A stretch of DNA of 64,000 nucleotides. It comes from Polytrichum commune (taxonomy: Eukaryota; Streptophyta; Polytrichopsida; Polytrichales; Polytrichaceae). The position numbers and the translations under genes are program-made. Shown one piece after another: positions 7,292 to 21,369 of the stretch (position 1 is the stretch's first letter; every line of letters starts with the position of its first letter). The stretch covers positions 29,733,666 through 29,797,665 of the forward strand of contig OX485807.1 in assembly GCA_950295325.1 (NCBI GenBank). The letters are read 5' to 3'. The notes beneath the pieces were generated by a model that was not told the origin of the DNA, made no database searches, and was given only the letters and a program-made list of their open reading frames with translations.

Positions 7292-8826
7292 ATGGCGGAT
7301 TCAGTCTCAACCGCTGCGTTGGCTGTGCTCCGCGCCCATGGCATGGGCATTCCTCTTACCTTTCGCGTGGATGAGAACGGACATGCTTCAGTATCTAGTC
7401 AGCGTTTGAGTCTTAGATTCATTTTTCTAGAAGACACTATTAGTATTGAGGAGGAGGTTTTCGATGACCTCACGTCTGAACTAACTCACACAATTGGCCA
7501 GTTATCAATTCGTGATGAGAATGACTGTAAGATGTGGAGACTTGCTCCCGGCAGGTATAGGGTCTATGGATTGACAGATTCCCAGATGGCAGCATCTACG
7601 GAAATTCTTACCCCTAGCCGTTCATCTACGTGCACTATGCATACCCCTCTTCCTACTGATGTAAAGGTCAAGGTAGAGCCAAGACCAAAGACTCCTCTTC
7701 TTGCAAAAGTTAAGGTTGAACCGGGCACTTTTAATTCAGTCATCACCCTTTCATCAGACGACGATGACAGTCCTCACAGATCCACGCCTTTCGTTCCTAG
7801 TCCACCCAACCATTCTGGTCAGTCGAAGTCTCCTGTAGTTGTTTCAGATAAGTGTCTTCCATTGCAACCGCCTTCTTCATGTGTGTGCGTCAGTATCGTA
7901 GACTGTTTGAAAAAACTGGCTACTAGGCCAGGGAAGAAGAATCTCCTAAAGAAGCTTGACTACAGTTCCATTAGACATGAGAGAGTTGAATACTTGCCTA
8001 CAATATTTAACGGTGATGTCATGTTTGAGTTGCCTCTTGCCGGTACTTCAGCCTCGCAGACGCAAGCAAAATCTATGCAGGGCATGGATAAACGATACGA
8101 TGGTCATGTCTGGACCAAAACCATCACGACCAACATCACTAATGATATGGGTCTCTCTTTTCGGTTCTCAAGTTGTGTCGGTCACCTGCGGTGTGAGAAT
8201 AAGGAGTGCGTCTACCTGACCCGTGAGCATCGCATCTTCGAAGTGAACGAGACAGAGTTTGACGGATGTACCTTGCAAGCATTTGTTGTTGGCCAGGGTC
8301 CTCCCAAAGATTCGACTCTGGTTTGCAAGGTGTGTAAGGAACCTCCCGCTTGTCTTGCCACTTGTAGAGCTAAGATCTATTATGTATCGGGTAAGCGTAA
8401 CAACACCCGTGTTTGCATCCACCTTGGAACCCATGAGCATCCTGTTAAAGTTGGCGACTATAGAGATACGAAGGTCAAAATTAGTAGCCTCATCAAAGAT
8501 CAGATCGAGAAGACTCCACATGCCACGAAGAATGCAGTTGTGTTGGAAGCAAGTAAGATGCTTGTTGGCAACTACTTGTTGATGTCCGAGGACGATCCGC
8601 CAAAGACGCTTACTTTTGAGGAACTCGTTCCGGTGCTTGACCGATGCAAGGACATGGCCTCGCCCAACATCCGGAATAAGGTCGTCACCTTTAGATACTT
8701 GAGGAGGTATGGTGTGATGGATAGCATTACCAATTTGCGGGGTCTCAGCAACTGGGCTTTTGTGCAAAAGAACATGTTTCCCGGTCAAGGTGCAGAGCTT
8801 GACAAGGTCTTCATGTTCAAGATGTC
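7292..8826 (+). CDS. SWIM-type MULE-like transposase gene, 5' part, split by insertion
   Basis: This is the first part of one gene, continued at 19157-19785 and 19885-21369. ATG at 7292 is chosen because it sits in a strong plant context (cgccATGGcg); an in-frame TTG further up is not a credible start. The piece has an acidic, Ser/Pro-rich region with two VKVEP motifs and a VITLSSDDDD stretch (residues about 125-155). A Cys/His-rich DNA-binding-like region follows (about residues 290-390, with CENKEC, CKVCKEPP and THEHP). The frame stays open into the retrotransposon, but gene sequence stops at the target duplication (8822-8826). The family is inferred from the DDE-like and SWIM parts in the downstream exons. 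It may be a transposon itself or a domesticated gene; no terminal inverted repeats were found. Confidence 0.7.
8822..8826. repeat. Left target-site duplication ATGTC
   Basis: The five bases ATGTC precede the element's first TG and recur at 19156-19160 on the right. If the right end is taken as the canonical CA, the duplication is four bases, TGTC. Removing the insertion and one copy restores the transposase frame without a shift (…Lys-Met-Ser-Glu-Val…). Confidence 0.85.
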
Positions 8827-9159
8827 TGTCACGGTATGCGGCATCGAAGGCCGCACCGTATCCGTTGGGTTTCATCCATCTAGATTTGGATGGATGAATC
8901 TAGATGTGGAGAGGAAGGCTCCTAAGTGAGGAGCCTCCTCCTTGGCTTGGCATTCTTGCCAAGTCAAGTCTTGTGAGTTAGTGTGTGGAGAGAGCTTGTG
9001 TGAGGTGTAGATTGCATGATTTTGCAATAAATCTTGAGTTCTTCTTCCCCTACTTACACTCTTGGATTCTCCCTTGGTGGAGTGAGAGATAGCTTGACTA
9101 ATTGGTGTGCATTTGAAGAGATTTAGAGCTATTGTGAGTGTTCTACTCTCTTCCTTCTC
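8827..9159 (+). repeat. Left-end repeat X of the retrotransposon
   Basis: 333 bases starting TGTCACGG, found again at 18718-19050 with two visible substitutions (ggatgg/ggattg and gtgagt/gtgaat). It contains a short inverted pair around the first 100 bases ('catccatctagat' / 'atctagatgt'). It begins directly at the host junction, as an LTR should. What follows (9160 on) is not matched in the right end. Confidence 0.9.
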
Positions 9160-9469
9160 ACTTGGCAAGAATTGCTTCATTTTTTTTGTTTTCTTCTACA
9201 TTTTTGATATATAACACACAAGAAAAGGCGTGAGGACAAGGAGTGATGAAGTTGCGAAGTTCTGGAGAGAGAACACCGCGGATTTGCGGCGCAACAAGAT
9301 GAAGAATGCTTGTTTTTGAAGGCCACATCAAGGTGAATTGTGGTGATGAATTATTGAATTTATTACGGAATTCCTTGTTATTTTTCCGCTTGCAAGCTTG
9401 AATTCGTATCATTGAGCTTGTGTAGAGCATTCTTCATTCCAATTTGAGTTCAAGTTCATTTAAAAACAA

Positions 9470-9504
<35 letters not shown>

Positions 9505-9505
9505 A
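9470..9505. repeat. T15/A21 homopolymer junction
   Basis: Fifteen T are followed at once by twenty-one A, a perfect fold-back of about 15 base pairs. It marks the abrupt border between normal-composition DNA and the very GC-rich block that follows. Confidence 0.95.
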
Positions 9506-9910
9506 GAGGAGCCGACTCTTGGAGCCGGAGCTCCTGGTCGGTCCCGGAGTGCAGAGCTGCGGCGGCCATCCGGGCGGCACGCGGCGGCCGGCGGCCCGGG
9601 CCCGCGGCTCCCCCCCTCCTCCTTCTCCTCCCCCCCCTCGGTAACCCCCTCCCCCGGTACTTCCCTCCCGTACCTTCCTCTCTTCCCCCCCGTACCTCCC
9701 CTCTCACCTTCCTCCCTCCTTCCTCTCACCCTTCCCCCCCCTACACCTAAGCCCCTTTCCCCCCCCCCCTACACCTAAGCCCCCCCCCCAAGCCTACACC
9801 TAACCTCCCCCCCCCCAGCCTACCTGCGCCAAGCCCAGCTCCCTCCCCTCCTCTGCTGCGGTAGCAGTAGCAGCAGCAGCAGCAGAACTGCTGCAGGGGG
9901 GCAGGGGGTC
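9506..9910. repeat. CpG- and C-rich low-complexity block in the leader
   Basis: The first about 100 bases are CpG-dense (cggcggccggcggcccggg). Then a long pyrimidine tract of C-runs, T and A extends to about 9850, including three copies of 'cctacacctaa' (9741-9805). It closes with a CAG-type triplet run (cagcagcag…ctgctgc) able to fold. Composition is extreme against the surroundings. Translated open frames here (9444-9977, both strands) are Pro- or Gly/Arg-rich noise. Confidence 0.85.
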
Positions 9911-10414
9911 GATTTTTATTTTTATTTTTATATTTAAAAAAATCATTGTGTAGGTAGAGAGAGATATATATATACATGTTTATTTGTATTTTTTAATACA
10001 AATATATATGTATATGTATATATAGACAATCAACTAAGATACCAATTCTTTGGATCTAAGAGAGGTGTATCTTGACGGAGACATTCTCCATGGGTGTTGG
10101 GGGCATTCAAAATTTCAAGAGCGTGCAATTCTTGGGTTTATGAATAACAAACTTTAAGGATGGATTGAGAGCACCTTCTTGAGTTTCTTGGGGATTGTCG
10201 GAGGTTTGGTACGGAATCATTTTGTTGGGAAAGGTGGAGCATTGCGGGAGAGGTTCGCGGGGGCGTCCGGCAACACGCGGAGGGCGTGGGATTGCGGCGA
10301 ATTTGCGGCTAGCTTCATTTTCTCTTGCAACAACTTGATAGAGGTACTTGGCATAAGCGGGGGTTTGCCATTTTCTTTTGTTTACAAGAAAATTAAGGGC
10401 ATTGTTATTTATTT

Positions 10415-10550
10415 GGGGAATAGGTGTAGGATTTATTGGGGATAGGTGTAGAATTTATTTGGGGATCAATTTATTAGATTGTTGGGGATAGGTGTAGGAT
10501 TTGTTGGGGATAGGTGTAGAATTATTTGGGGATAGGTTTATATATTGTTG
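10415..10550 (+). repeat. Short tandem repeat GGGGATAGGTGTAGRATTT
   Basis: Four to five copies of a 19-20-base unit lie at about 10418, 10438, 10482, 10503 and a partial at 10525. The core TAGGTGTAG is the reverse complement of the CTACACCTA core at 9741-9805. Nothing gene-like is seen between 9910 and 11073 beyond this; the open frame at 10179-10445 has no recognisable domain. Confidence 0.8.
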
Positions 10551-11073
10551 AGAAATTGCTTAAGGGTAGAACAAATTGTGTTGAGAAATACAAATTCTGG
10601 GGACTACAAGGAGGAGAGAATTTTATGATGTAGTACTAGATGAGGGATGTGCTTATGCTATTTATTTACTTGAGCAACAGGGGCTCTATATTTTGACCAC
10701 CAACCGCAGGCGGGTGCCGGTTGGTCACAATCGCTTTGAATTTTTGCTTAAGTGTTGTGTTGGAGAAGAGGATCCAATGTTGTTCTTGCATTGTTCCTTG
10801 TATTTTGTTGTGGTACCTTCCCCCTGTGGTGGGCTTGTTGTGTTGGAGTCTTCCAACATTGCCCCAATTTGTTTGTCCTAGATTGTGATAGGGTATTGTG
10901 GGGGTGAGGTCGGATTAATGACCGACGAGACCCTTGTGTGTGCACCAAGTGGGCGGTGCTTGTTTTCCTTATGGTGAGGTGGGTTGATGACCAGCAGACC
11001 ATAAGTTTGGTGGTGTTTGCAGGTGCAGGTTGCCTTTTACCCTTCACCTTTACACCACATTAGTTTAGATTGT

Positions 11074-11093
11074 TGGCTCCAGTGACCGAACCC
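11074..11093 (+). promoter_or_regulatory. Candidate tRNA primer binding site
   Basis: TGGCTCCAGTGACCGAACCC begins with the TGG expected to pair with a tRNA CCA end and lies 11 bases before ORF1. It resembles in layout the TGGCGCC… sites of some plant gypsy elements but matches no tRNA I can name with certainty. Just upstream, 'tttacaccaca' (11050-11060) resembles the 'tttacacgaca' that ends the right terminus, which would place the end of a 5' LTR near 11060. Confidence 0.5.
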
Positions 11094-11104
11094 ATTGCGG
11101 GTTT

Positions 11105-14100
11105 ATGGTTACAACGAGGAGCCAACATTATCGTTCGCCGTCTCCAGCATCATCACAAGGTCGATCCTCAGACCTTTTGGACAGTGAACCAGTAGTAGCA
11201 CCCGACGAGGCTTTTAAGCCTACTTCGGCGTGGGGGACTGCCACTCGTTCTTACATCCATTGGGTGGGATCCTTCGACGAGATGGAGGAGGAGTCAAGAG
11301 GCGGCATTCGAGACCGATTTTCTGGTCGAGCAGGGACCATTTCCTTGCAAGATTGGAAAATCCGGTTCAGGACATGGATGAGGGAGAAACGTCAACGCAA
11401 TACCAACTTCAACGATTGGTATGCGTTCGAGCTTCTACCACAACATTTAGAGCACGAAGCTCTCCAGACCTATGAGCAATGGACGGATGCTCATTGGATG
11501 GAGCTGCGCCAAGTGGAGTGGTACTGGGAGACTCGGGTTGAGTTGGTATCCGCATTGAAGGAAGGCGCAGCTTCCAGTTTGATGGCCGTTCCGGAGGTTA
11601 AGACGGAGGTACAGGAGGGAGTATACGAGGTGGATGTGGAGGGAGCTTTTCCCATCAATCCCACGGCTCAGGGCCAAGCTCCCGCAGCAGCGAGTACCTC
11701 GAGCCCCATTCTTCCACTGTCACGTTATGCCCAGGCTACCCAGGCGGCATTAGCTTCTTTAGGAGCTCCGCCGGGTTTTGATCCTCTACAGGAATTCCAA
11801 CTCCATTTGGAGGCGGAATATGGAGGCTTCCGCCGCGATCAAATGCAGCGTATCCAGGACTTTCGACGGGAGAAAGATGACACACCTCGTACCATGTACA
11901 CGAGGTTGGCGAGGTTTGCCAGAGAATCTGGAGGTGTTTTCGCCGAAAGCCAGTTGGTAAAGGTGTTTTTGTCAAAGCTTGACAAACGCCTCATTGACTT
12001 AGCTTTACCCAGGATCATCATGGATCATGGTGGCCGAGCGACACTTGCGGAAGCTTTCGCCATTGTTGAGCAGTGTGATCGTGCCTTGTGTCAGCACGAC
12101 GCCACTGACTTGGTGTCCATGCTAGTGGATTCTAGCAAATCCCGGAAGGTTCCGGTTGCGGCTGCGGGGTTGGCGGAGGCAGAGGTGGACAAGATCTTGC
12201 ATTGTTGGTCTTGTGGACAGGCGGGCCATGCTAAGAAGGATTGTCCTTCGAAGCATAGGCAAGCCCAGACCGCCACTACTCCGAAGCGGAAACCATTTGT
12301 TCCCGCTAAGGGCTCGACGAAGGGGACGGGTAATCAGTTACCCAAACAATTGAAGTGTTCTCATTGTGGGCGAAACAATCACGCGGTGGAGAACTGCTTC
12401 GCTCTCCATCCTGAGAAACGTCCTTCTTCCGACCGGGAGAAGACGTTGGAGGCGAAGATTGGAGCCATGGAGGAGAGGTTCAAAAGCTTGGCTTCATCCG
12501 GCCAAATTTTGGCCTCACCGTCTTCCTCCGCAGCTCAGGCTAGTTCTTCCACTCCGGATTACTATATGTTCGGAGCCTTGGGCGAGGTGGTGAGTTCTGC
12601 AGCTGTGACACGTGCTCAAACCGTGTCACGAGCCACGCCTTCGACCACAAGAGAGTCTGTGGACAGCTTACGAGCTCGGCACAATGGTCCCGCGGATCAG
12701 ATTGGTCAGGCACGCCTTCCATTGTCTTTTGGATTGGCTGATGCTGCCCAATCTGTCAGTGGTCGCAATTCGAGCTTGGAGGCTTCGAGTCCGTCGACCG
12801 ACGTGCTGCACACTTTGGCATCCAAAGTGTTGCACACGCCTTTGTTCACAGCAATGGATTGGTCGTCATCCGATATCCAACCAGCTAAGGTTTTTTACGT
12901 AGCAGGTAGGATATTGGAGGGGAAGGCAACCCCGTCTTCTCTTACTGTGGCTCAAGCAACCGCAGACCTTCCTACCACGGAGGATCCTGAGGAAGCCGCC
13001 AAACGGCGAGCGAGGCTTGCGGAGGAGGCCATTGCGTCTTTTGACGCACACACCTTGGATGGCCAGGAGCCAACCACATCTTATCATTCACCAGCCTCTG
13101 CAGGCGCAGCTTATCTATCCGATGTAGCTGCTCGACCTGCTCGCGAGCGTCGAGGCATTCGACCTGGCGTTGTACGGATGGTGAATGATACCGGCATTTT
13201 GGTGGTCAGTCGTACTGGGAGCAATGCTACCCGGGTTGCTCCCCGTTGTGTGATGATGGATTCAGGGGCACAACCGGTTATGCTCGGCAAGAGGCTTGCC
13301 CAAGAGTTGGGGTTGAAGGCCGAGGATTTGGCTCCCTGTCCATTCACCATTGTCACATCCATTGGTCACGTGGAGCGGGCCATGGGTTATACTCGGGAGC
13401 CATTAGATCTTAGCTTCCGAGTGAAGCCTGGAGATTCACCCGCACCTCTTCTTCTTAGGTGTGCGGTGACGGATGCGACCAACTATGACATTTTAGTTGG
13501 TCAGCAAGCACTTTACCCTCTTGGTTTTGGTTTGGACAACTGGACTGAGGAGGCGTGGATCCGACCAGGTTGGTCGGCTGGGGATGGCCGCAGAGAACTT
13601 ATTCCCGTGGCTTTTGCGGCGGCCGCGACCATAGCACCATTATCTATGGTTTTTGGATGTGGTGCTATGGTGGACACATTGCCTTATGGTTCTGCATTGT
13701 TGGAGGAGTCATTGGCATTCATGGGGAGTACAAACGATCAACGGGATATGGCACCTAAGGGTGCACTGGTGCGCCATCCCAAGGATCCCCTTCCTCCTTG
13801 GCGTGATTCCGCCGAGCTATTTCGGAAGTGCGAGGATATTATTCACTCTCTCACTCCTAGGACACCGGTCATACCCGGTGTCCTCTCGGCATTGGCACAT
13901 CCCATTTTATGGCAGCCGCCAGACACGGGAATTACTTTGGTGGAACTGTTTGGAGGCATCGGCACAGGCTTAGCGGCCGTATTGGAGGCTGGCCTCACGG
14001 TTAGACGGTATGTCTATGTGGACAACTCTCAAGTGTCCACCCGTGTGGCTCGTCACCATCTTCACCAATTGATGGTATTGTACCCCCAACAGTTACCTCC

Positions 14101-15187
14101 AACTGCCATTCGTGGGTGTTTTTCACGTCTCCCTCGTGATGTCACACTCATCAGTGAGGCCGATTTACGACATTTAGGTCCGGTGGATATGGTGATTGCG
14201 GGATGGCCATGCCAGGGCCATTCACGTGCTGGAGCTGGCCAAGGTCTAGGGGATCCCAGGTCTAATTTGTTTTGGGACCTCATCCGCCTCATGCAGTGGT
14301 GGTTTTCCCACCAACATACTCCTTCAGGGTATATATTCGAGAATGTACCATTGTTGGGCGACTCCCGGGATAAGGTGTTGGAAGGTGATCATTATGTTCG
14401 TCAACACCTTGGAGATCCCATTTTTGTGGATGCCGCGAGCATTGGTTCTTATGCCCACCGGCCTCGGTGGATTTGGACCAACCTCGCACCGTCATCTACT
14501 TTAGCTGCAGCATTTTCTGCAGTACCTCTACCTTTGGATCAGAAGGTGGATGACATCTTGGATGCAAACCGGACCTCTTTGCCGGTTGTTCGAGATGATT
14601 TACCCCCGTTGGCATTGGTCAACAAAGTGGGGACACCACGGAAAGCATTTCCTACCTTTATGACGTTTCCACAGTCATTCGCCTTCCGCGATCGGGGGCC
14701 GGGTATGGTGTGGGATGTTCACACCAAAACCCACACCGAACCATTGGCTGACGAACGGGAACGTGCCATGGGATTCCGCACTGGCACCACCGCAGCTCCC
14801 GGCCTTTCTGAGGGCCAGCGACGATTCGTGTTGGGCCAAGCTATGGATCTTCATACTATGGTGTGGACTGTTGCTTTATGCCTTTCATTGCAAAGGCATC
14901 GTGGTGACCAGTGCTTGTCTCTGGGGGCAGAGGACTCTGGTCAGGGGGCACAGTGGTCCACACCCATGGAGGAGGGAATTCACGCCATGGTTGGAGAAGC
15001 CGAACGAATTTTTCAATTCGAGCAGTATGTGATGGAGGAGCTTCGAGCTCAACATTTTTACACTGCTTCGGTTTCTTCGCCTCCGGTGGTGGCTTCATCA
15101 TCACATATTGGTGGTGATGAAGAAATGTCAGACTCTAGTACTAGCACCGAGACTGGGGGCATGGTTAATGCCCCCTCCTCTCATTAG
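11105..15187 (+). CDS. Retrotransposon ORF1: Gag, CCHC knuckles, protease, cytosine methyltransferase
   Basis: 1360 residues. Gag-like helical region at about 60-340. Two zinc knuckles: CWSCGQAGHAKKDC (from about 367) and CSHCGRNNHAVENC (about 418). The aspartic protease has MMDSGAQP with the catalytic Asp near 719. Residues about 940-1260 form a C5 DNA methyltransferase: motif I LFGGIGTGLAAVLEAG (about 946-961), motif II-like YVYVDNS, motif IV AGWPCQGHSRAG with catalytic Cys1036, motif VI FENV with Glu1079, motif VIII HRPRW (about 1117-1121), and motif X-like VLGQAMDLHTMVW (about 1241). The target-recognition part is short. The GIGTGL phrase and the motif X tail look DNMT3/DRM-like. Known function of the family: transfers methyl from S-adenosylmethionine to carbon 5 of cytosine. 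All key residues are present, so activity is plausible. It ends at a UAG that is probably leaky; the methyltransferase would be made at Gag abundance. Confidence 0.93.
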   Translation: MVTTRSQHYRSPSPASSQGRSSDLLDSEPVVAPDEAFKPTSAWGTATRSYIHWVGSFDEMEEESRGGIRDRFSGRAGTISLQDWKIRFRTWMREKRQRNTNFNDWYAFELLPQHLEHEALQTYEQWTDAHWMELRQVEWYWETRVELVSALKEGAASSLMAVPEVKTEVQEGVYEVDVEGAFPINPTAQGQAPAAASTSSPILPLSRYAQATQAALASLGAPPGFDPLQEFQLHLEAEYGGFRRDQMQRIQDFRREKDDTPRTMYTRLARFARESGGVFAESQLVKVFLSKLDKRLIDLALPRIIMDHGGRATLAEAFAIVEQCDRALCQHDATDLVSMLVDSSKSRKVPVAAAGLAEAEVDKILHCWSCGQAGHAKKDCPSKHRQAQTATTPKRKPFVPAKGSTKGTGNQLPKQLKCSHCGRNNHAVENCFALHPEKRPSSDREKTLEAKIGAMEERFKSLASSGQILASPSSSAAQASSSTPDYYMFGALGEVVSSAAVTRAQTVSRATPSTTRESVDSLRARHNGPADQIGQARLPLSFGLADAAQSVSGRNSSLEASSPSTDVLHTLASKVLHTPLFTAMDWSSSDIQPAKVFYVAGRILEGKATPSSLTVAQATADLPTTEDPEEAAKRRARLAEEAIASFDAHTLDGQEPTTSYHSPASAGAAYLSDVAARPARERRGIRPGVVRMVNDTGILVVSRTGSNATRVAPRCVMMDSGAQPVMLGKRLAQELGLKAEDLAPCPFTIVTSIGHVERAMGYTREPLDLSFRVKPGDSPAPLLLRCAVTDATNYDILVGQQALYPLGFGLDNWTEEAWIRPGWSAGDGRRELIPVAFAAAATIAPLSMVFGCGAMVDTLPYGSALLEESLAFMGSTNDQRDMAPKGALVRHPKDPLPPWRDSAELFRKCEDIIHSLTPRTPVIPGVLSALAHPILWQPPDTGITLVELFGGIGTGLAAVLEAGLTVRRYVYVDNSQVSTRVARHHLHQLMVLYPQQLPPTAIRGCFSRLPRDVTLISEADLRHLGPVDMVIAGWPCQGHSRAGAGQGLGDPRSNLFWDLIRLMQWWFSHQHTPSGYIFENVPLLGDSRDKVLEGDHYVRQHLGDPIFVDAASIGSYAHRPRWIWTNLAPSSTLAAAFSAVPLPLDQKVDDILDANRTSLPVVRDDLPPLALVNKVGTPRKAFPTFMTFPQSFAFRDRGPGMVWDVHTKTHTEPLADERERAMGFRTGTTAAPGLSEGQRRFVLGQAMDLHTMVWTVALCLSLQRHRGDQCLSLGAEDSGQGAQWSTPMEEGIHAMVGEAERIFQFEQYVMEELRAQHFYTASVSSPPVVASSSHIGGDEEMSDSSTSTETGGMVNAPSSH

Positions 15188-15193
15188 CAATTA
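15185..15193 (+). promoter_or_regulatory. Leaky stop UAG CAA UUA (readthrough signal)
   Basis: ORF1 ends in TAG, followed directly by CAA TTA, and the frame then stays open for over 1000 codons into reverse transcriptase. UAG-CAR-YYA is the type I readthrough context known from tobacco mosaic virus replicase. There is no ATG near the start of ORF2, which supports suppression of the stop rather than fresh initiation. Confidence 0.85.
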
Positions 15194-18100
15194 GAGTCTG
15201 TGCCAGCATCAGGTGGTTCTCCTTTGGTGGAGAGGGAGACTACAGAGTTTGATGATTGGCCACTTGAATTAGGCCCTCGTCTCACTGGTGCTGAGGCACG
15301 GAAGGTACGAGCATTTATTCGCTCGTACCGTAGATGTTTTGCTTTTAGCCTTCAAGATCTTGAAGGTTATAAAGGAAAACCCATCCACATACAGTTGGAG
15401 GACGACCATCCCATTTTTCGGAGACCTTACAGGCTCAGTGTTTCCGAGCGGATTGGCGTTCAGGCTCGTTGCCGAGAGCTCTTGGCAGCAGGGCTAATCG
15501 AACTTTCCAACGGGGAGTATGCTTGTGCTACGGTTATGCCATCGAAGAAGGATATCTTTGGCAATTGGACGGAGAAGCGGATGTGTGGGGATTACCGTCC
15601 AGTTAATCGGAAGACCAAGTCGGATCGGTATCCCATGCCGATCCCGGAGGAGTTGTTCGATGCCATCGGATTTTCTCGGGTCTTTAGCACCTTGGACTTG
15701 AGATCCGGATATCACCAACTTCCATTACTTACGGGAGATCGGGTGAAGACCGCATTTTGGGGAGTTGATCAAGATGGGAAAGATCAACTTTATCATTGGA
15801 AGTTTCTTCCATTTGGCCTGAAGAATGCACCCGCTGAGTTTCAGCGGGTGATGGATCAAGTTCTCTCTGGCTTGCCCTTTGCTCGGTGTTACATAGACGA
15901 TGTGATCATCTTCAGCACAACACCACAGGAGCATGTGAGGCATCTGCAATCCGTTTTTGAACGGTTGCAGCGGTGGGGATTGCGCTTGCACCACGGAAAA
16001 TGCAAGTTTTTCCATGACCGGTTGGCATATTTGGGGCATATGATTGTTCCAGGAGGTCTTGGGGTACAACAAGCTAAGGTGGACGCATTGCAGAAGATTC
16101 CGGCACCGGTAGATGTGCCGAGACTTCGTGCTTTCTTAGGCTTGGCGAATTACTATCGGCGATTCGTCAAGAACTTTAGCTTGATTGCCAAGCCGCTCAC
16201 CATTCTCACGAGCAAGGACCAACCTTGGACTTGGGGTCGTGAGCAACAACAGGCATTTGAGACATTGAAGCAGAAACTGGGTACGGCTCCAGTGCTTCGA
16301 CGTCCAGATGTCTCCAAATCTTTCCAGTTGCATACAGACTGGAGCTCATTGGGTTTGGGAGCAGTTCTTACTCAGAAAGATGACGTTGGCCGGGAGTATG
16401 TTGTTGCTTACGCGTCGCGAAGCAACAACACGGCGGAGGCCAATTATTCGTCCTATGAGGGAGAAGCATTGGCGGCGGTATGGGCTATTGCCCATTTTCG
16501 GCCGTATCTTTATGGTCAGCACTTTACTTTGGTGACTGACCATCAGCCGTTACGGTGGCTCATGGAGTCGGATAAGCTTACTGGCAAGCTTGCCAGGTGG
16601 GCTTTGTTGCTCCAGGAGTATGACTTTGAGGTGGTACACCGTGCTGGGATTACCAACATGGATGCAGATGGACTCTCACGCAATCCAAGTCCTTCGGATG
16701 AGGACTTGACCGGGGCCAGGTGGCATGGAGATTGTGATCGAGAGGCGGTTCCAGGTTGGCACGCGGCTGCCTACCTCACTTTATTTGCTGGTGCATCTGT
16801 TGAGATTCCGATACAAGGCTCGGATGATGAGACTGATCGGCCTCAAGCTATTGCGGATATATGGGAGGATCTTCCCGTATTGCATAAGCTTCAACAAGGT
16901 ACCTTTCCTTTGTCTATTTCGGCAATGAAAAGGGATAGGATTGGACATCGAATAACAAGGTTCCGTTGGGAAAACGGTTTGTTATTCCGATTGTGGCCGG
17001 ATGGGACAAGGCGTATTGTTCCTAGGCCGGATCAGAGGGCCTCCTTGGTGCGACAAGTGCACGAGGAACTTGGCCATTTTGGCATACGCAGGACACATTC
17101 GATGTTGCGTGGCCAATATTGGTGGACTGGCATGTATCAGCAGGTGGCTGCATATGTCGGGAGGTGTGAAGTTTGTGACCGGGTCAGGTCTAGCTTTAAC
17201 ACCTTATCACCTCAGTTACAGCCCTTACCTATCATGGGATTAGGCTACCGTTGGTCGCTGGACTTTGCAGGGCTGTTGGTGGTTACACCACGTGGAGCAA
17301 AGTACGTTTTGGTGCTGGTCGAGCATTTTAGCAAATGGATTGAGCTTGTTGCTCTACCCCAGAACTCTGCAGAGTTGGCCGCGGCCGCCTTTTTGGATCG
17401 TATGTTAGCACGTTTTGGAGCACCAGCTGAGGTGTTGACGGACCAAGGGAGGGAGTTCCTTGGTGTTTTTGAGGAGTTGTGCACTAAGGCTCTCATAGAT
17501 CACCGCACCACCTCTCGGGATCATCCGGAGGCAGATGGCTTGGCTGAACGGGTTGTTCAGACCACCAAGCGTGGCTTGAGGAAGTATGGATTACTTCGGG
17601 GAAGCCACCGAGATTGGGACCTTATGTTGCCATGGATTGCTATGGGCTATCGATTTAGTAGGCAGGCCTCTTTAGCATCCTACAGCCCGTATCAATTATT
17701 GTATGGACGTGAGCCTATACTCCCGAGTTCTATTCGGGAAAAACTAGCTCCTGTTGTGAACTTGGATGACCCAGACCTTTGGGCAGAGTGTTTGCAGGAG
17801 CGGGCTCAATTCTTCCAGAGGGCCATGCCTATGGCCATAGAGAATTTGTCCATTGCTCAGCACCGTGACACATTGCGTTATGCACGCATTCGTAGTGGTG
17901 CTTACCGGCCTCAGTTGCAGAGATTTCGGCAAGGGGATTATGTTTATCTTCAACGTGAGGCGCCTACGACATTGGATGTCAGGGCGGGGCGCACTATCCT
18001 TCGGGTGAAGGAGGTGTTGCCAAGTGGTTTGGAAGGCAAGGATGGTAGGGAATGTCGCGAGCATTCCAAAAACTGTGCCCCATGTCATCTACCTATTGAG

Positions 18101-18325
18101 GGTACAGTTCATCCTGAACTGGCCGTCGTACCAGAGGGTCTTCCATGTTTTGTGTGTGAAGACAAGAAGGGAGCGGCTACTATGCTCTTGTGTGATCAGT
18201 GTCAACGCGGTTGGTACATGGCATGCTTGCGGCCACCCTTGACTTCTCTACCATCTGGACAGTGGAGTTGTCCTCGCTGTCGAGCATCTTCGGTACTTGG
18301 TGCTTCCACCAATCGTACTCAATGA
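15188..18325 (+). CDS. Retrotransposon ORF2: RT, RNase H, integrase, PHD finger
   Basis: In phase with ORF1 after the UAG. Residues counted from the GTG at 15200: reverse transcriptase with LDLRSGYHQL, FGLKNAPAEFQ and catalytic YIDD (231-234); RNase H starting at HTDWSSLGLGAVL (about 378) with TDHQPLRWL; integrase zinc region (HEELGHFGIRR … CEVC, about 619-660); catalytic triad Asp688, Asp748, Glu783 (34 residues between the last two, one fewer than the usual 35). A basic linker follows, then a PHD-type zinc finger at 983-1027 (CFVC…LLCDQCQRGW…CLRPPL…WSCPRC). The usual zinc-binding His of the C4HC3 pattern is Tyr1006 (TAC for CAC). Chromoviruses carry a chromodomain at this place. Integrase copies the element into DNA; the PHD finger may read histone tails and steer it (inference). 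No internal stop or shift. Confidence 0.93.
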   Translation, partial: QLESVPASGGSPLVERETTEFDDWPLELGPRLTGAEARKVRAFIRSYRRCFAFSLQDLEGYKGKPIHIQLEDDHPIFRRPYRLSVSERIGVQARCRELLAAGLIELSNGEYACATVMPSKKDIFGNWTEKRMCGDYRPVNRKTKSDRYPMPIPEELFDAIGFSRVFSTLDLRSGYHQLPLLTGDRVKTAFWGVDQDGKDQLYHWKFLPFGLKNAPAEFQRVMDQVLSGLPFARCYIDDVIIFSTTPQEHVRHLQSVFERLQRWGLRLHHGKCKFFHDRLAYLGHMIVPGGLGVQQAKVDALQKIPAPVDVPRLRAFLGLANYYRRFVKNFSLIAKPLTILTSKDQPWTWGREQQQAFETLKQKLGTAPVLRRPDVSKSFQLHTDWSSLGLGAVLTQKDDVGREYVVAYASRSNNTAEANYSSYEGEALAAVWAIAHFRPYLYGQHFTLVTDHQPLRWLMESDKLTGKLARWALLLQEYDFEVVHRAGITNMDADGLSRNPSPSDEDLTGARWHGDCDREAVPGWHAAAYLTLFAGASVEIPIQGSDDETDRPQAIADIWEDLPVLHKLQQGTFPLSISAMKRDRIGHRITRFRWENGLLFRLWPDGTRRIVPRPDQRASLVRQVHEELGHFGIRRTHSMLRGQYWWTGMYQQVAAYVGRCEVCDRVRSSFNTLSPQLQPLPIMGLGYRWSLDFAGLLVVTPRGAKYVLVLVEHFSKWIELVALPQNSAELAAAAFLDRMLARFGAPAEVLTDQGREFLGVFEELCTKALIDHRTTSRDHPEADGLAERVVQTTKRGLRKYGLLRGSHRDWDLMLPWIAMGYRFSRQASLASYSPYQLLYGREPILPSSIREKLAPVVNLDDPDLWAECLQERAQFFQRAMPMAIENLSIAQHRDTLRYARIRSGAYRPQLQRFRQGDYVYLQREAPTTLDVRAGRTILRVKEVLPSGLEGKDGRECREHSKNCAPCHLPIEGTVHPELAVVPEGLPCFVCEDKKGAATMLLCDQCQRGWYMACLRPPLTSLPSGQWSCPRCRASSVLGASTNRTQ

Positions 18326-18596
18326 TCCTGTGTGGTTTTCATCATCTTGTGCTTGTCCAAATGGAAAATGAAGAGTTATGGCTTAGAGACGCAACCAACG
18401 TGAGGCGGTGGATTTAATTCTTTGGGATCTGATGGCCAAACATCAGAGGCGATTAAGGATGGGGCTCACCTTGCACCCAGCCTACAGTTCCTTGGAATAA
18501 CGTTTACCACACTAGTTAGTTGCGGAGCAATCTTTCATGATCCATGCCCTTTAGATTGGCATTGGTCCTAGCTGCTTGGCGGGACTCCATAGTCAG
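18326..18596 (+). other. Retrotransposon 3' non-coding stretch
   Basis: About 270 bases between the ORF2 stop and the polypurine tract. No open frame or repeat of note. Confidence 0.7.
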
Positions 18597-18609
18597 CTGA
18601 GGGGGGGCA
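18597..18609 (+). promoter_or_regulatory. Polypurine tract
   Basis: CTGAGGGGGGGCA directly before TGTCGAGG, the plus-strand priming site expected just before a 3' LTR. Its position says the 3' terminal repeat begins at 18610. Confidence 0.8.
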
Positions 18610-18715
18610 TGTCGAGGTGTGTTGTCTATGTGTGACTTTGCTATGTTTTAGTTTTGTTTGTTAGTGGTGGTTGGTACTCGAGCTGCAGTGACACACGATC
18701 GTTATTTACACGACA
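18610..18715 (+). repeat. Terminal repeat L, first copy
   Basis: 106 bases beginning TGTCGAGG and ending ACACGACA, so the outer five bases are inverted (TGTCG/CGACA). It recurs at 19051-19156 with two visible substitutions. It starts directly after the polypurine tract. Confidence 0.9.
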
Positions 18716-18717
18716 GC

Positions 18718-19050
18718 TGTCACGGTATGCGGCATCGAAGGCCGCACCGTATCCGTTGGGTTTCATCCATCTAGATTTGGATTGATGAATCTAGATGTGG
18801 AGAGGAAGGCTCCTAAGTGAGGAGCCTCCTCCTTGGCTTGGCATTCTTGCCAAGTCAAGTCTTGTGAATTAGTGTGTGGAGAGAGCTTGTGTGAGGTGTA
18901 GATTGCATGATTTTGCAATAAATCTTGAGTTCTTCTTCCCCTACTTACACTCTTGGATTCTCCCTTGGTGGAGTGAGAGATAGCTTGACTAATTGGTGTG
19001 CATTTGAAGAGATTTAGAGCTATTGTGAGTGTTCTACTCTCTTCCTTCTC
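18718..19050 (+). repeat. Repeat X, right copy
   Basis: Copy of the element's left end (8827-9159), 333 bases in both places, lying between the two 106-base L repeats. Joined to the first L copy by 'gc'. The shared sequence extends one base further left in both places (CTGTCACGG). Confidence 0.92.
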
Positions 19051-19156
19051 TGTCGAGGTGTGTTGTTTATGTGTGACTTTGCTATGTTTTAGTTTTGTTT
19101 GTTAGTGGTGGTTGGTACTCGAGCTACAGTGACACACGATCGTTATTTACACGACA
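19051..19156 (+). repeat. Terminal repeat L, second copy, at the right junction
   Basis: Second 106-base copy of L. Its last bases ACACGACA abut host sequence TGTCGGAGG, so this is the true right boundary of the insertion. No copy of L is present at the left end of the element. Confidence 0.9.
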
Positions 19157-21369
19157 TGTCGGAGGTGGGGCCTGGAAGTGGGGTGGACTTGGTGAAGCGA
19201 ATGCAGCCCAAGGGGGACCTCGAGAATGCTTGGATAATGTTCGACCACGTCAAACGGGTGAGGCAGTGGACCACCATGGCTTGTCATGTTTACGACTCGA
19301 CTTATTGCCGTGTGATGACCATCGCATGTTGCGACATGCAATCCGAGGATATTGATGCGCAGATGGTGTTCTGGAAAAACCTCAACGCAGTGATGGAGAG
19401 ACATGGCGTCGAAAGGCCTTACTTCAAAGGATTCATGGCGGATAATGCGCAGGCAAACTGGAATGCCGTCTGGGTCGTATACGGGAACGGCAAGAAGGAG
19501 GATCACATGGACGATCGAGAGAGGACTTGTCAGTTTCACTGGACCCAGTCCATGTTGAAATACACGGACAAACACATCGCTGAAAACATGAGGGAACAAC
19601 ACATGAAGATGTGCCACCAGTATAGGACGGCACAGACGCTAGCCGAGGCCGAGAGTCTTTACCATGGGCTGAGGGCCTGGTGGGTATCTGCTGGGGCCGT
19701 GACTGAAAAAACGTTGAGTAAATTGGAGTTGTGGCTTGCCTTTTGGCACTTCCGCTATCGCCAATGGGGTGGATTTATGACAGGGGTAAGCTCATTCGAT
19801 TTTTGCCATGAACATCAATCTAGACTTTGAAGGGTTATATAGTTCTGAATTTTACGCTAACTTGACCTTGCATGCGATGCCCAGAAATTCACGGAGGTAG
19901 AACTTGCTGAGATGCCGTTTTGCAACCTTGCGGAGACTGTCCACAACAAGTGGCTTCAAGCATCCGGCAGCAACGGCGGTGATCTTTATGTCGCCACGGT
20001 GGATGACTATATCCGGGCATTCCTACAGGTCATCAATTACTACCAGTACTTGAAGGGCGACGTGGGCGGGACTGGACCGAGCAAGAAAGAGCTAAGGCTG
20101 CGGATGGCGAAACGTAGGGCCCAGAAAACAGGTGACCCTAAGGTCCTCCAGGACCCCATGCTAGACATGCCCGGAGCCGACGAGTTCTGTACACGCGACC
20201 CTCACATGGCGGGAGAGGAAGTGTTTGGCTCGATGAAGCGGAAGCTAGACCTGCCCCTTGGAGCTGATGAAGAGTCGCACAGGCCTGATAAGGTCAACTT
20301 CTCGCATCCCCGTGGCATTGGTAGGGCTGTCAGGACTCGTTCCATTCACATGCCAATAATTCTTGAAGAGGAAGATTCCGATGTCCAGAAAATTGCACCC
20401 ACAGCGCCACATGCCAACGATGTCATCCCGTCCCCCACCCCCAAGGGACGGATCCGGCACGTCTTTGTTGTCGAGGAGACTAGGGTGAACGTGAAGGAGT
20501 GGCACATCGCTCGGTTGCCAAAGACTTCTGCCAAATATTGTTGGGCCCAGAGAGCTGTCACCAAAAAGAAGTGTACTGAGATAATCGTAAGGGGTGTGAA
20601 ATCAACCCCCGCCCCTACGTACACCGGTCTATGGCACAACACTAGGAGGAATGTGAAAGAGTCCATAGAGTTCTTCTTCTGCTCAGATGATATCGAGAGG
20701 TGCGTCAAGGGTAGGAGGCGCAAATGGGTCATTCAATACTCTGCGCAGCAGGAGAGACCAAGCATTCCGGATGTTTGGCCAGTGAAACTTGGTACAAACC
20801 TCAAGCAATGTGAGATCTTGGCCCTCGAAGCAGCCGGATTCCAACTGCCGCAGAAAATGCCGGTCTCGCCCAGAAGGCTCTTTTCCACAGCCTCGTCCCC
20901 GGCAAATCTAGACTCCGTGCCGGTGCCCGCGGATGCAGACAGGTATCCTAGCAAGAGAGAAGGGAAGATTGTCAAGCGCACCGCAACCCGTCCAAACCCT
21001 CAGCAGAGGCTATCCATGGGCTCTTCGGATTCCCTCAAAGCTCGACTCCGCTCGGTCACGATGATTCCTCACCCTGGCCATGGTTGCATCATTGCGCTAG
21101 ACTCGATGACGCCACCCGACGTGACACAATACCAGATCACCATCAGCTCCCTTCCAGGTTGCACCTGCCCCGCATTCAAGAAGACAATGACCAACTTTCG
21201 GGGGAGGAGTCAGTTCTCGTATTGCAAACATGTCTACTTCATCCTTTTAAAGGTCTGCCATCGCAATCCAGATGTAGACATTTTCATCCACGCGCCAACC
21301 TTCAGCTTCAACGAGGTCAAAGTAGTCCTCGAGAATGGAATCTTAACTCACCCTTTGGGTCGGACCTAG
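19157..21369 (+). CDS. SWIM-type MULE-like transposase gene, 3' part
   Basis: Continuation of 7292-8826 after the insertion. Exon 19157-19785, intron 19786-19884 (GTAAGC…CCCAG, phase 0), exon 19885-21369. The first exon carries a DDE-transposase-like core: HVYDSTYCRVMTIACCD, FMADNAQANWNAVW and the following CQFHW. After the intron comes EVELAEMPFCNLAETVHNKW, a Lys/Arg-rich spacer, and a SWIM zinc finger near the C terminus (GCTCPAF … YCKH, about 21160-21225). SWIM after the catalytic core is the usual MULE order. Both halves are free of stops and shifts, so the gene was open when the element landed. The 5' half cannot now be joined in one transcript unless 10 kb is spliced out. Whether it is a mobile MULE or a domesticated gene is open. 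Confidence 0.75.

Follow-up and report, generated by a model that had tools for sequence, protein, structure and literature searches.

A Gypsy-type retrotransposon with a DNMT3-type cytosine methyltransferase in its Gag reading frame, a tobamovirus-type readthrough motif and split direct repeats

Retrotransposons of the Gypsy-Dnmt3 kind, which encode a DNMT3-type cytosine methyltransferase (DNMT), are already known (de Mendoza et al. 2018, PMC5890265). KnitGypsy-Dnmt3 of Klebsormidium nitens combines Gypsy domains and a DNMT3-type enzyme with DIRS-like repeats, the latter given in a figure legend, while SymbioDIRS-Dnmt3 of Symbiodinium pairs an enzyme of the same type, which methylates CG in yeast, with repeats in the order A-coding-B-A-B (PMC5890265). 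Here we describe a complete 10,330-bp element in which Gypsy domains, a DNMT3-type enzyme and repeats of this order likewise occur together. It lies at positions 8827-19156, on the + strand, of a 64,000-nucleotide stretch of contig OX485807.1 from the Polytrichum commune assembly (hereafter the window). Judged by its sequence, it is a Ty3/Gypsy-type retrotransposon that looks autonomous and belongs to the streptophyte Gypsy-Dnmt3 lineage, having inside its Gypsy polyprotein a DNMT3 domain homologous to the one in K. nitens.

The comparison also brings out differences. The published account places the DNMT of KnitGypsy-Dnmt3 on the Pol open reading frame (ORF), whereas here it lies on the Gag ORF, and the host differs from K. 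nitens, being probably a land-plant genome. The available text of that account makes no mention of a readthrough signal, of self-priming or of a repeat mechanism, does not discuss the integrase question, and does not use the term PHD in its main text (PMC5890265). SymbioDIRS-Dnmt3 has a tyrosine recombinase and a DIRS reverse transcriptase, unlike the DDE integrase, 4-bp target duplications and Gypsy reverse transcriptase of the window element (PMC5890265). Two further parallels lie outside the methyltransferase elements. Tf1/Sushi and Tcn1 elements have a primer-binding site complementary to their own RNA rather than to a tRNA, as here, and self-priming extends to the Tcn1 chromoviruses of mosses (Neumann 2019, PMC6317226); these are chromodomain chromoviruses, from which the window element differs in its PHD finger, its DNMT and its split repeats. 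The tobamovirus replicase follows the nine-base readthrough consensus UAG_CAR_YYA at an in-frame UAG (PMC3542737), and the same rule applies here, except that it separates Gag-protease-DNMT from Pol in a retrotransposon. According to a 2019 hypothesis paper, land plants, ‘such as tracheophytes’, lack methylase-encoding transposons (PMC6338049). The literature searched, which was covered mostly at title level and included few subscription papers, yielded no account of a DNMT-Gypsy element from a land plant; among 19 papers that contain the title phrase of de Mendoza et al. (2018), that paper and its correction included, no title names such an element. As far as that literature shows, the occurrence in land plants is new, as are the signals for readthrough and self-priming with their covariation, the PHD finger and the base-resolved ends with target duplications.

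The presence of a C5 methyltransferase in this retrotransposon is confirmed. The first-pass annotation had proposed such a domain within a Gypsy element, in one frame with Gag and protease, and both points hold: the former by profile, motif and structure matches to DNMT3, which also led us to reject a chance resemblance, and the latter by the domain order of ORF1. The readthrough signal, self-priming, split direct repeats and PHD finger go beyond that annotation. The closest match of the domain in both structure and sequence is DNMT3A/B, with a high-confidence DNMT3 fold, and in the standard numbering of C5 methyltransferase motifs the order is I-IV-VI-VIII-IX-X, non-permuted as in the DNMT3 family. 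Motif IV reads GWPCQGHS, compared with GGSPCNDLS in DNMT3A, and so lacks the PCN that marks DNMT3 and DRM enzymes; by sequence this is a variant only, and the overall match stays with DNMT3. The catalytic Cys, the Glu of ENV and the Arg of AHRxR are invariant in all 11 DNMTs aligned. An origin from a permuted DRM was rejected: motif X precedes motif I in the host's DRM-like exon. That exon (L094, C2:4703300-4704100) belongs to a host DRM-like methyltransferase with permuted motifs and the sequence SPCNNLS. In a search with a DNMT3A fragment for a host DNMT3 gene, retroelement copies filled the matches listed.

The domain is under purifying selection, weaker than that on Pol, as judged from ratios of nonsynonymous to synonymous substitution (dN/dS). 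Its median dN/dS was 0.24 within family 1, the window element's own (46 pairs), and 0.12 between this and a second sampled family (47 pairs, dS ~2.4), while the corresponding medians were 0.08 and 0.03 for reverse transcriptase (RT) and 0.10 and 0.02 for integrase (IN). These values use 46 of 55 DNMT pairs in family 1, 14 of 15 in family 2 and 47 of 66 between families; pairs with dS ≤0.02 or saturated dS were excluded, as were L028, L056 and L064, in which less than 90% of the DNMT lay in one match. The group medians exclude L070 (one stop), whereas L014 (one stop) was retained.

Such elements are numerous in the 408-Mb genome, with at least 123 PF00145 matches, counted by score and not individually inspected, and at least 150 scored matches to the DNMT3A fragment, likewise not inspected one by one and including at least one host DRM-like exon. 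The chance single capture against which the first-pass annotation had cautioned is thus not seen, and we rejected it on these counts. Family 2 is ~83-87% identical to family 1 in ORF2 (tblastn), and the repeats of the two families are 70% identical over 270 columns for A and 65% over 103 for B. The two A copies of a single element differ at 0-4 of ~334 positions in 11 elements, which points to recent activity. Within family 1, the Gag and DNMT segments (window 11500-15000) form a mosaic with 76-99% identity; ORF2 is mostly 95-100% identical, although some stretches of L013/14, L027/28 and L059/60 reach no more than 90-93%, and in L069/70 its identity drops off beyond 17250. A mosaic ORF1 that is more divergent than ORF2 suggests, from the alignments, recombination between ORF1 lineages.

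Relatives occur in other streptophytes. When the DNMT part of ORF1 was searched against 5.8 billion proteins, 70 matches were returned, including named proteins of Marchantia polymorpha, Sphagnum fallax and Closterium. A DNMT profile gave 194, and among the 120 listed were Calypogeia fissa, Marchantia paleacea and K. nitens KFL_017580010 (P0112). Three M. polymorpha matches (P0017, P0018 and P0025) sit on contigs of 21-27 Mb, so that this species, at least, carries such elements. A scan of IMG/VR for relatives found none. One protein from a metagenome-assembled ‘Candidatus Obscuribacterales’ genome, P0072, is 71% identical to the window DNMT and probably stems from a plant retroelement that contaminated a bacterial bin.

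Two domain orders recur among the relatives. In one, Gag, protease (PR) and DNMT are followed by RT, RNase H (RH) and IN, either in one ORF or with the ORF ending soon after the DNMT; in the other the order is RT-RH-DNMT-IN-PHD. The second order forms a single clade both in the DNMT tree (16 of 69 rows, support 100/100) and in the RT-RH tree (13 of 29 rows, 100/98), from which we conclude that the DNMT domain was probably moved, or captured, once more within the lineage, although the roots of the trees are unsure; in the DNMT tree the sole non-retroelement row is the DNMT3A fragment, on a long branch. The proteins P0038-P0064 in which RT or RNase H precedes the DNMT are a separate clade of metagenome elements, with the DNMT between RNase H and integrase. 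P0112, recovered by the DNMT profile, bears out the suggested relation to captured methyltransferases of charophytes; it shares 33% identity with the window DNMT across 314 aa and is presumably one of the published KnitGypsy-Dnmt3 copies. Its relatives include P0053 (PR-DNMT) and P0059 (GAG-PR-DNMT). Because P0112 stops just past the DNMT, as P0059 does, a Gag-side DNMT is probably not unique to the window element, to judge from these proteins. The earlier interpretation is supported in part: it stands as regards the capture, the Gag side and the charophyte kinship, whereas its idea that the element methylates its own DNA or its target, or evades silencing, is conjecture.

ORF1 and ORF2 share one frame, split by a single TAG at 15185-15187. 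A total of 29 rows were given for the junction and 28 yielded it (L008 gave none), leaving 23 distinct copies after five duplicate places were set aside (15 of family 1 and eight of family 2). The stop is TAG in all 23 and is followed by CARYYA in 22, the exception being L028 with CGA TTA. Family 1 has CAA TTA or CAG TTA (CAG in L001) and family 2 CAA TCA or CAA CCA, so that the families differ at the Y positions of the motif, and the flanking codons differ too. On simple base odds CARYYA would follow a stop about once in 512, with the caveat that copies within a family are not independent. The relatives P0001-P0018, known as proteins only, likewise end shortly after the DNMT. Since Pol lies in frame behind UAG-CAR-YYA, the major product would be Gag-protease-DNMT3, with Pol (RT-RH-IN-PHD) a minor readthrough product and the DNMT made at the level of Gag.

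As to priming, just one of 9428 internal 13-mers in the family-1 element has a complement in A, and it is the 13 bases adjoining A1; in family 2 (L057/58) it is one of 9003, again at the first position after A1. The family-2 site, ACTTGACAACAAT, differs from that of the window element at two of 13 bases, and both differences are compensated in the A repeat of their own family and absent from the A of the other. Pairing of at least 12 nt is kept in 25 of 26 other family-1 copies (L046 has 8), and in family 2 it is exact in L057, L061 and L067 and 12 of 13 in L065. Sites for tRNA primers begin with TGG, and a tRNA primer was rejected for family 2, as its site has no TGG. Because the primer-binding site is exactly complementary to a site inside A, with compensating changes between families, the element RNA probably primes itself as in Tf1, the primer site lying by inference near the RNA 5′ end. 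The A repeat also folds better than shuffled sequence (z = -5.28 for window 8827-9159 and -5.37 for L057 1626-2057). Although its sequence has diverged between the families, in both it forms a series of near-perfect hairpins that precede the presumed start of the RNA. A known ribozyme or RNA family in the A or B repeats was rejected, as Rfam gave only matches below gathering scores.

The ends of the element combine characters of two groups. The PR-RT-RH-IN order and rve (DDE) integrase are those of Ty3/Gypsy, which carries identical long terminal repeats (LTRs) at both ends, whereas here the left end is A and the right end B. The A-coding-B-A-B split direct repeats are those of DIRS/PAT elements, which have a tyrosine recombinase and make no target duplication; the window element has an rve integrase and 4-bp target duplications, within the 4-6 bp of Ty3/Gypsy. 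The layout A1-coding-B1-A2-B2 recurs in 11 of 11 family-1 elements, in four family-2 elements and in L059/L060, and the succession of polypurine tract, CA and B1 in 10 other family-1 elements. Read by eye, the 4-bp duplications match in 15 of 18 end pairs (10/11, 1/2 and 4/5 in three sets); L027/28 and L059/60 deviate by one base each, and L036/48, 13.8 kb apart, may not be one element. The end sequences TGTCACG and CACGACA are common to both families, while the ends on the polypurine-tract and primer-site sides are not. The position of the A2/B2 join is constant in 13 of 14 family-1 copies (L048 carries an additional base; L024 and L028 show substitutions) and in 15 of 17 family-2 copies, L062 and L066 being cut at a CTTGA microhomology; this constancy, with its microhomology exceptions, is as expected of joined ends. 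In family 2, L093 has a tandem pair of B repeats at its end, which meet at a GCT shared by the B/A join and the start of B.

Because the polypurine tract and CA precede B and the primer-binding site directly follows A, reverse transcription from these two sites would yield LTRs of the form B+A, running from the start of B to the end of A. The A2/B2 join fuses the expected ends of this LTR, so the integrated form appears to be a circular permutation of the expected cDNA. We propose that the cDNA ends would be joined first, as a 2-LTR circle or a tail-joined equivalent, and that the integrase would then cut at the palindromic join of B and A, which falls within the LTR that reverse transcription would produce. 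Packaged in the particle in larger amounts than RT, the DNMT would most likely add de novo methylation to the element's own, possibly circular, cDNA ahead of integration. Action within the particle is favoured by the location of the enzyme in the Gag ORF, by its intact catalytic residues and by the purifying selection on it, and de Mendoza et al. proposed methylation of element cDNA in the particle for the DIRS element of dinoflagellates (PMC5890265). As a whole, a Gypsy-Dnmt3 element with readthrough, self-priming, joined-end integration and cDNA methylation in the particle is the explanation that we consider the best and fairly likely. The bolder form is tentative, possible but on balance doubtful: a streptophyte Gypsy lineage, land plants included, that makes a joined-end circular cDNA with its integrase sites inside the LTR, primes itself, packages a DNMT3 at Gag stoichiometry by tobamovirus-style readthrough, and has CG methylation placed on its cDNA before this is inserted by a DDE integrase that bears a PHD reader.

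Several observations weigh against this proposal. None of the 28 family-1 left ends examined (11 + 17) has a B upstream of A1, and a simple circle model fails on the A-coding-B-A-B asymmetry because a 2-LTR circle has two equivalent B/A joins. When 10 further copies were fetched, five showed both ends in the fetched stretch, while L051/52, L053/54, L055/56, L063/64 and L069/70 showed no left/right repeat pair there. The repeats of the two families are related and, on that sequence kinship, are not fully independent witnesses. The DNMT is less constrained than RT or IN, as the family-1 medians above show, and its median dN/dS within family 2 is 0.59, at low dS. Glu replaces the Pro of PCQ in four of the 11 aligned DNMTs, so that not all of these enzymes may need to be active, and the one published assay of a close relative, that of KnitGypsy-Dnmt3 in yeast, saw no activity and was judged inconclusive (PMC5890265).

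Other explanations were weighed for the structure of the element. The B-A-B end could be an artefact in which a small element is nested in an ordinary LTR, as the ~330-nt A repeat might resemble a separate solo element, but this is extremely improbable and was rejected: the layout recurs in both families with diverged repeats, the target duplications flank the whole unit, the joined flanks restore an intact frame, and a like layout is published for KnitGypsy and SymbioDIRS (PMC5890265). The UAG could simply be a mutation that inactivates the element, or no more than the boundary between two ORFs, with Pol made by reinitiation or from a spliced RNA, and some relatives do have DNMT and RT in a single uninterrupted ORF. 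Against this stand the constant UAG and the CARYYA kept in two families with different flanking codons, together with an ORF2 that is intact and in the frame of ORF1, and we consider it quite improbable.

As to the role of the enzyme, it could act in trans, on the chromatin of the host or target (for example around the insertion or on rival elements), or damp the element's own copies to limit harm. Such roles would fit the integrase's PHD finger, which is of a type that reads chromatin, and chromatin at the insertion site and damping are both options raised by de Mendoza et al. (2018, PMC5890265). We regard them as rather unlikely for the window lineage, in which the DNMT lies in the Gag ORF and not on the integrase, an arrangement that favours particle-confined action. 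Retention for binding or architecture, such as RNA or DNA binding in the particle or Gag assembly, with catalysis dispensable, would accommodate the Glu substitutions and a family-1 dN/dS that is some three times the RT value and over double the IN value; set against the catalytic residues invariant throughout the alignment and the high-confidence DNMT3 fold, it seems improbable.

Table 1. Coordinates of the element and its features in the window
Feature	Position	Strand	Remarks
Left 4-bp target-site duplication, TGTC	8823-8826	.	Joined flanks with one copy restore the MULE-like frame
Repeat A1, left end, 333 nt; starts TGTCACGG; strongly structured	8827-9159	+	332/334 identical to A2, preceding C counted
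Putative primer sequence ATTCTTGCCAAGT inside A1 (inferred RNA 5′ end)	8952-8964	+	Exact complement of 9160-9172
Self-primer binding site ACTTGGCAAGAAT, directly after A1	9160-9172	+	Sole internal 13-mer with complement in A
ORF1, 1360 aa: Gag, CCHC, protease, DNMT	11105-15187	+	
CCHC zinc knuckle of Gag	12200-12250	+	Pfam PF00098, below cut-off
Retropepsin-like aspartyl protease	13238-13501	+	Profile match across relatives; weak Pfam match
DNMT3-type C5 cytosine methyltransferase domain; catalytic Cys codon 14210-14212	13940-14884	+	
UAG CAA UUA, tobamovirus-type readthrough motif, ORF1/ORF2 junction	15185-15193	+	Match to published consensus
ORF2, in frame with ORF1: RT, RNase H, DDE integrase, PHD finger	15188-18325	+	
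Reverse transcriptase	15389-16045	+	
RNase H	16307-16627	+	
H2C2 and rve (DDE) integrase	17018-17584	+	
PHD finger, integrase C-terminus	18143-18283	+	PF00628, 2.1e-8
Polypurine tract GAGGGGGGG, then CA, then B1	18599-18607	+	
Repeat B1, 106 nt, TGTCGAGG...CACGACA	18610-18715	+	
Palindrome GACA-GC-TGTC, B1/A2 join; two element ends abutted, 2 nt between	18712-18721	.	
Repeat A2	18718-19050	+	
Repeat B2, right end	19051-19156	+	104/106 identical to B1
Right 4-bp target-site duplication, TGTC	19157-19160	.	

The insertion site is a MULE-like transposase gene, at window 7801-8826 and 19157-21369; when the flanks are joined with one copy of TGTC, a MULE-like reading frame runs uninterrupted across the join. 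The interrupted gene has a weak SWIM zinc-finger match, below cut-off. In the PHD finger a zinc-ligand His is replaced by Tyr in the window copy only, the His being kept in all 14 other matching copies (17 given; eight of family 1 and six of family 2). On the integrase, this finger may help to choose the chromatin for insertion.

Cytosine methylation usually silences retrotransposons, and an element that keeps a methyltransferase under purifying selection presents a paradox with an unsolved published precedent. The relatives place this paradox in land plants, including the tractable model plant M. polymorpha, contrary to the 2019 statement (PMC6338049). The combination of split repeats with a DDE integrase raises the question of whether end-joined cDNA is a true integration intermediate, and the readthrough and self-priming signals make simple, testable predictions. 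If the proposal is true, these elements would follow a hybrid, Gypsy/DIRS-like life cycle that includes a methylation step of its own, kept since before streptophytes reached land.

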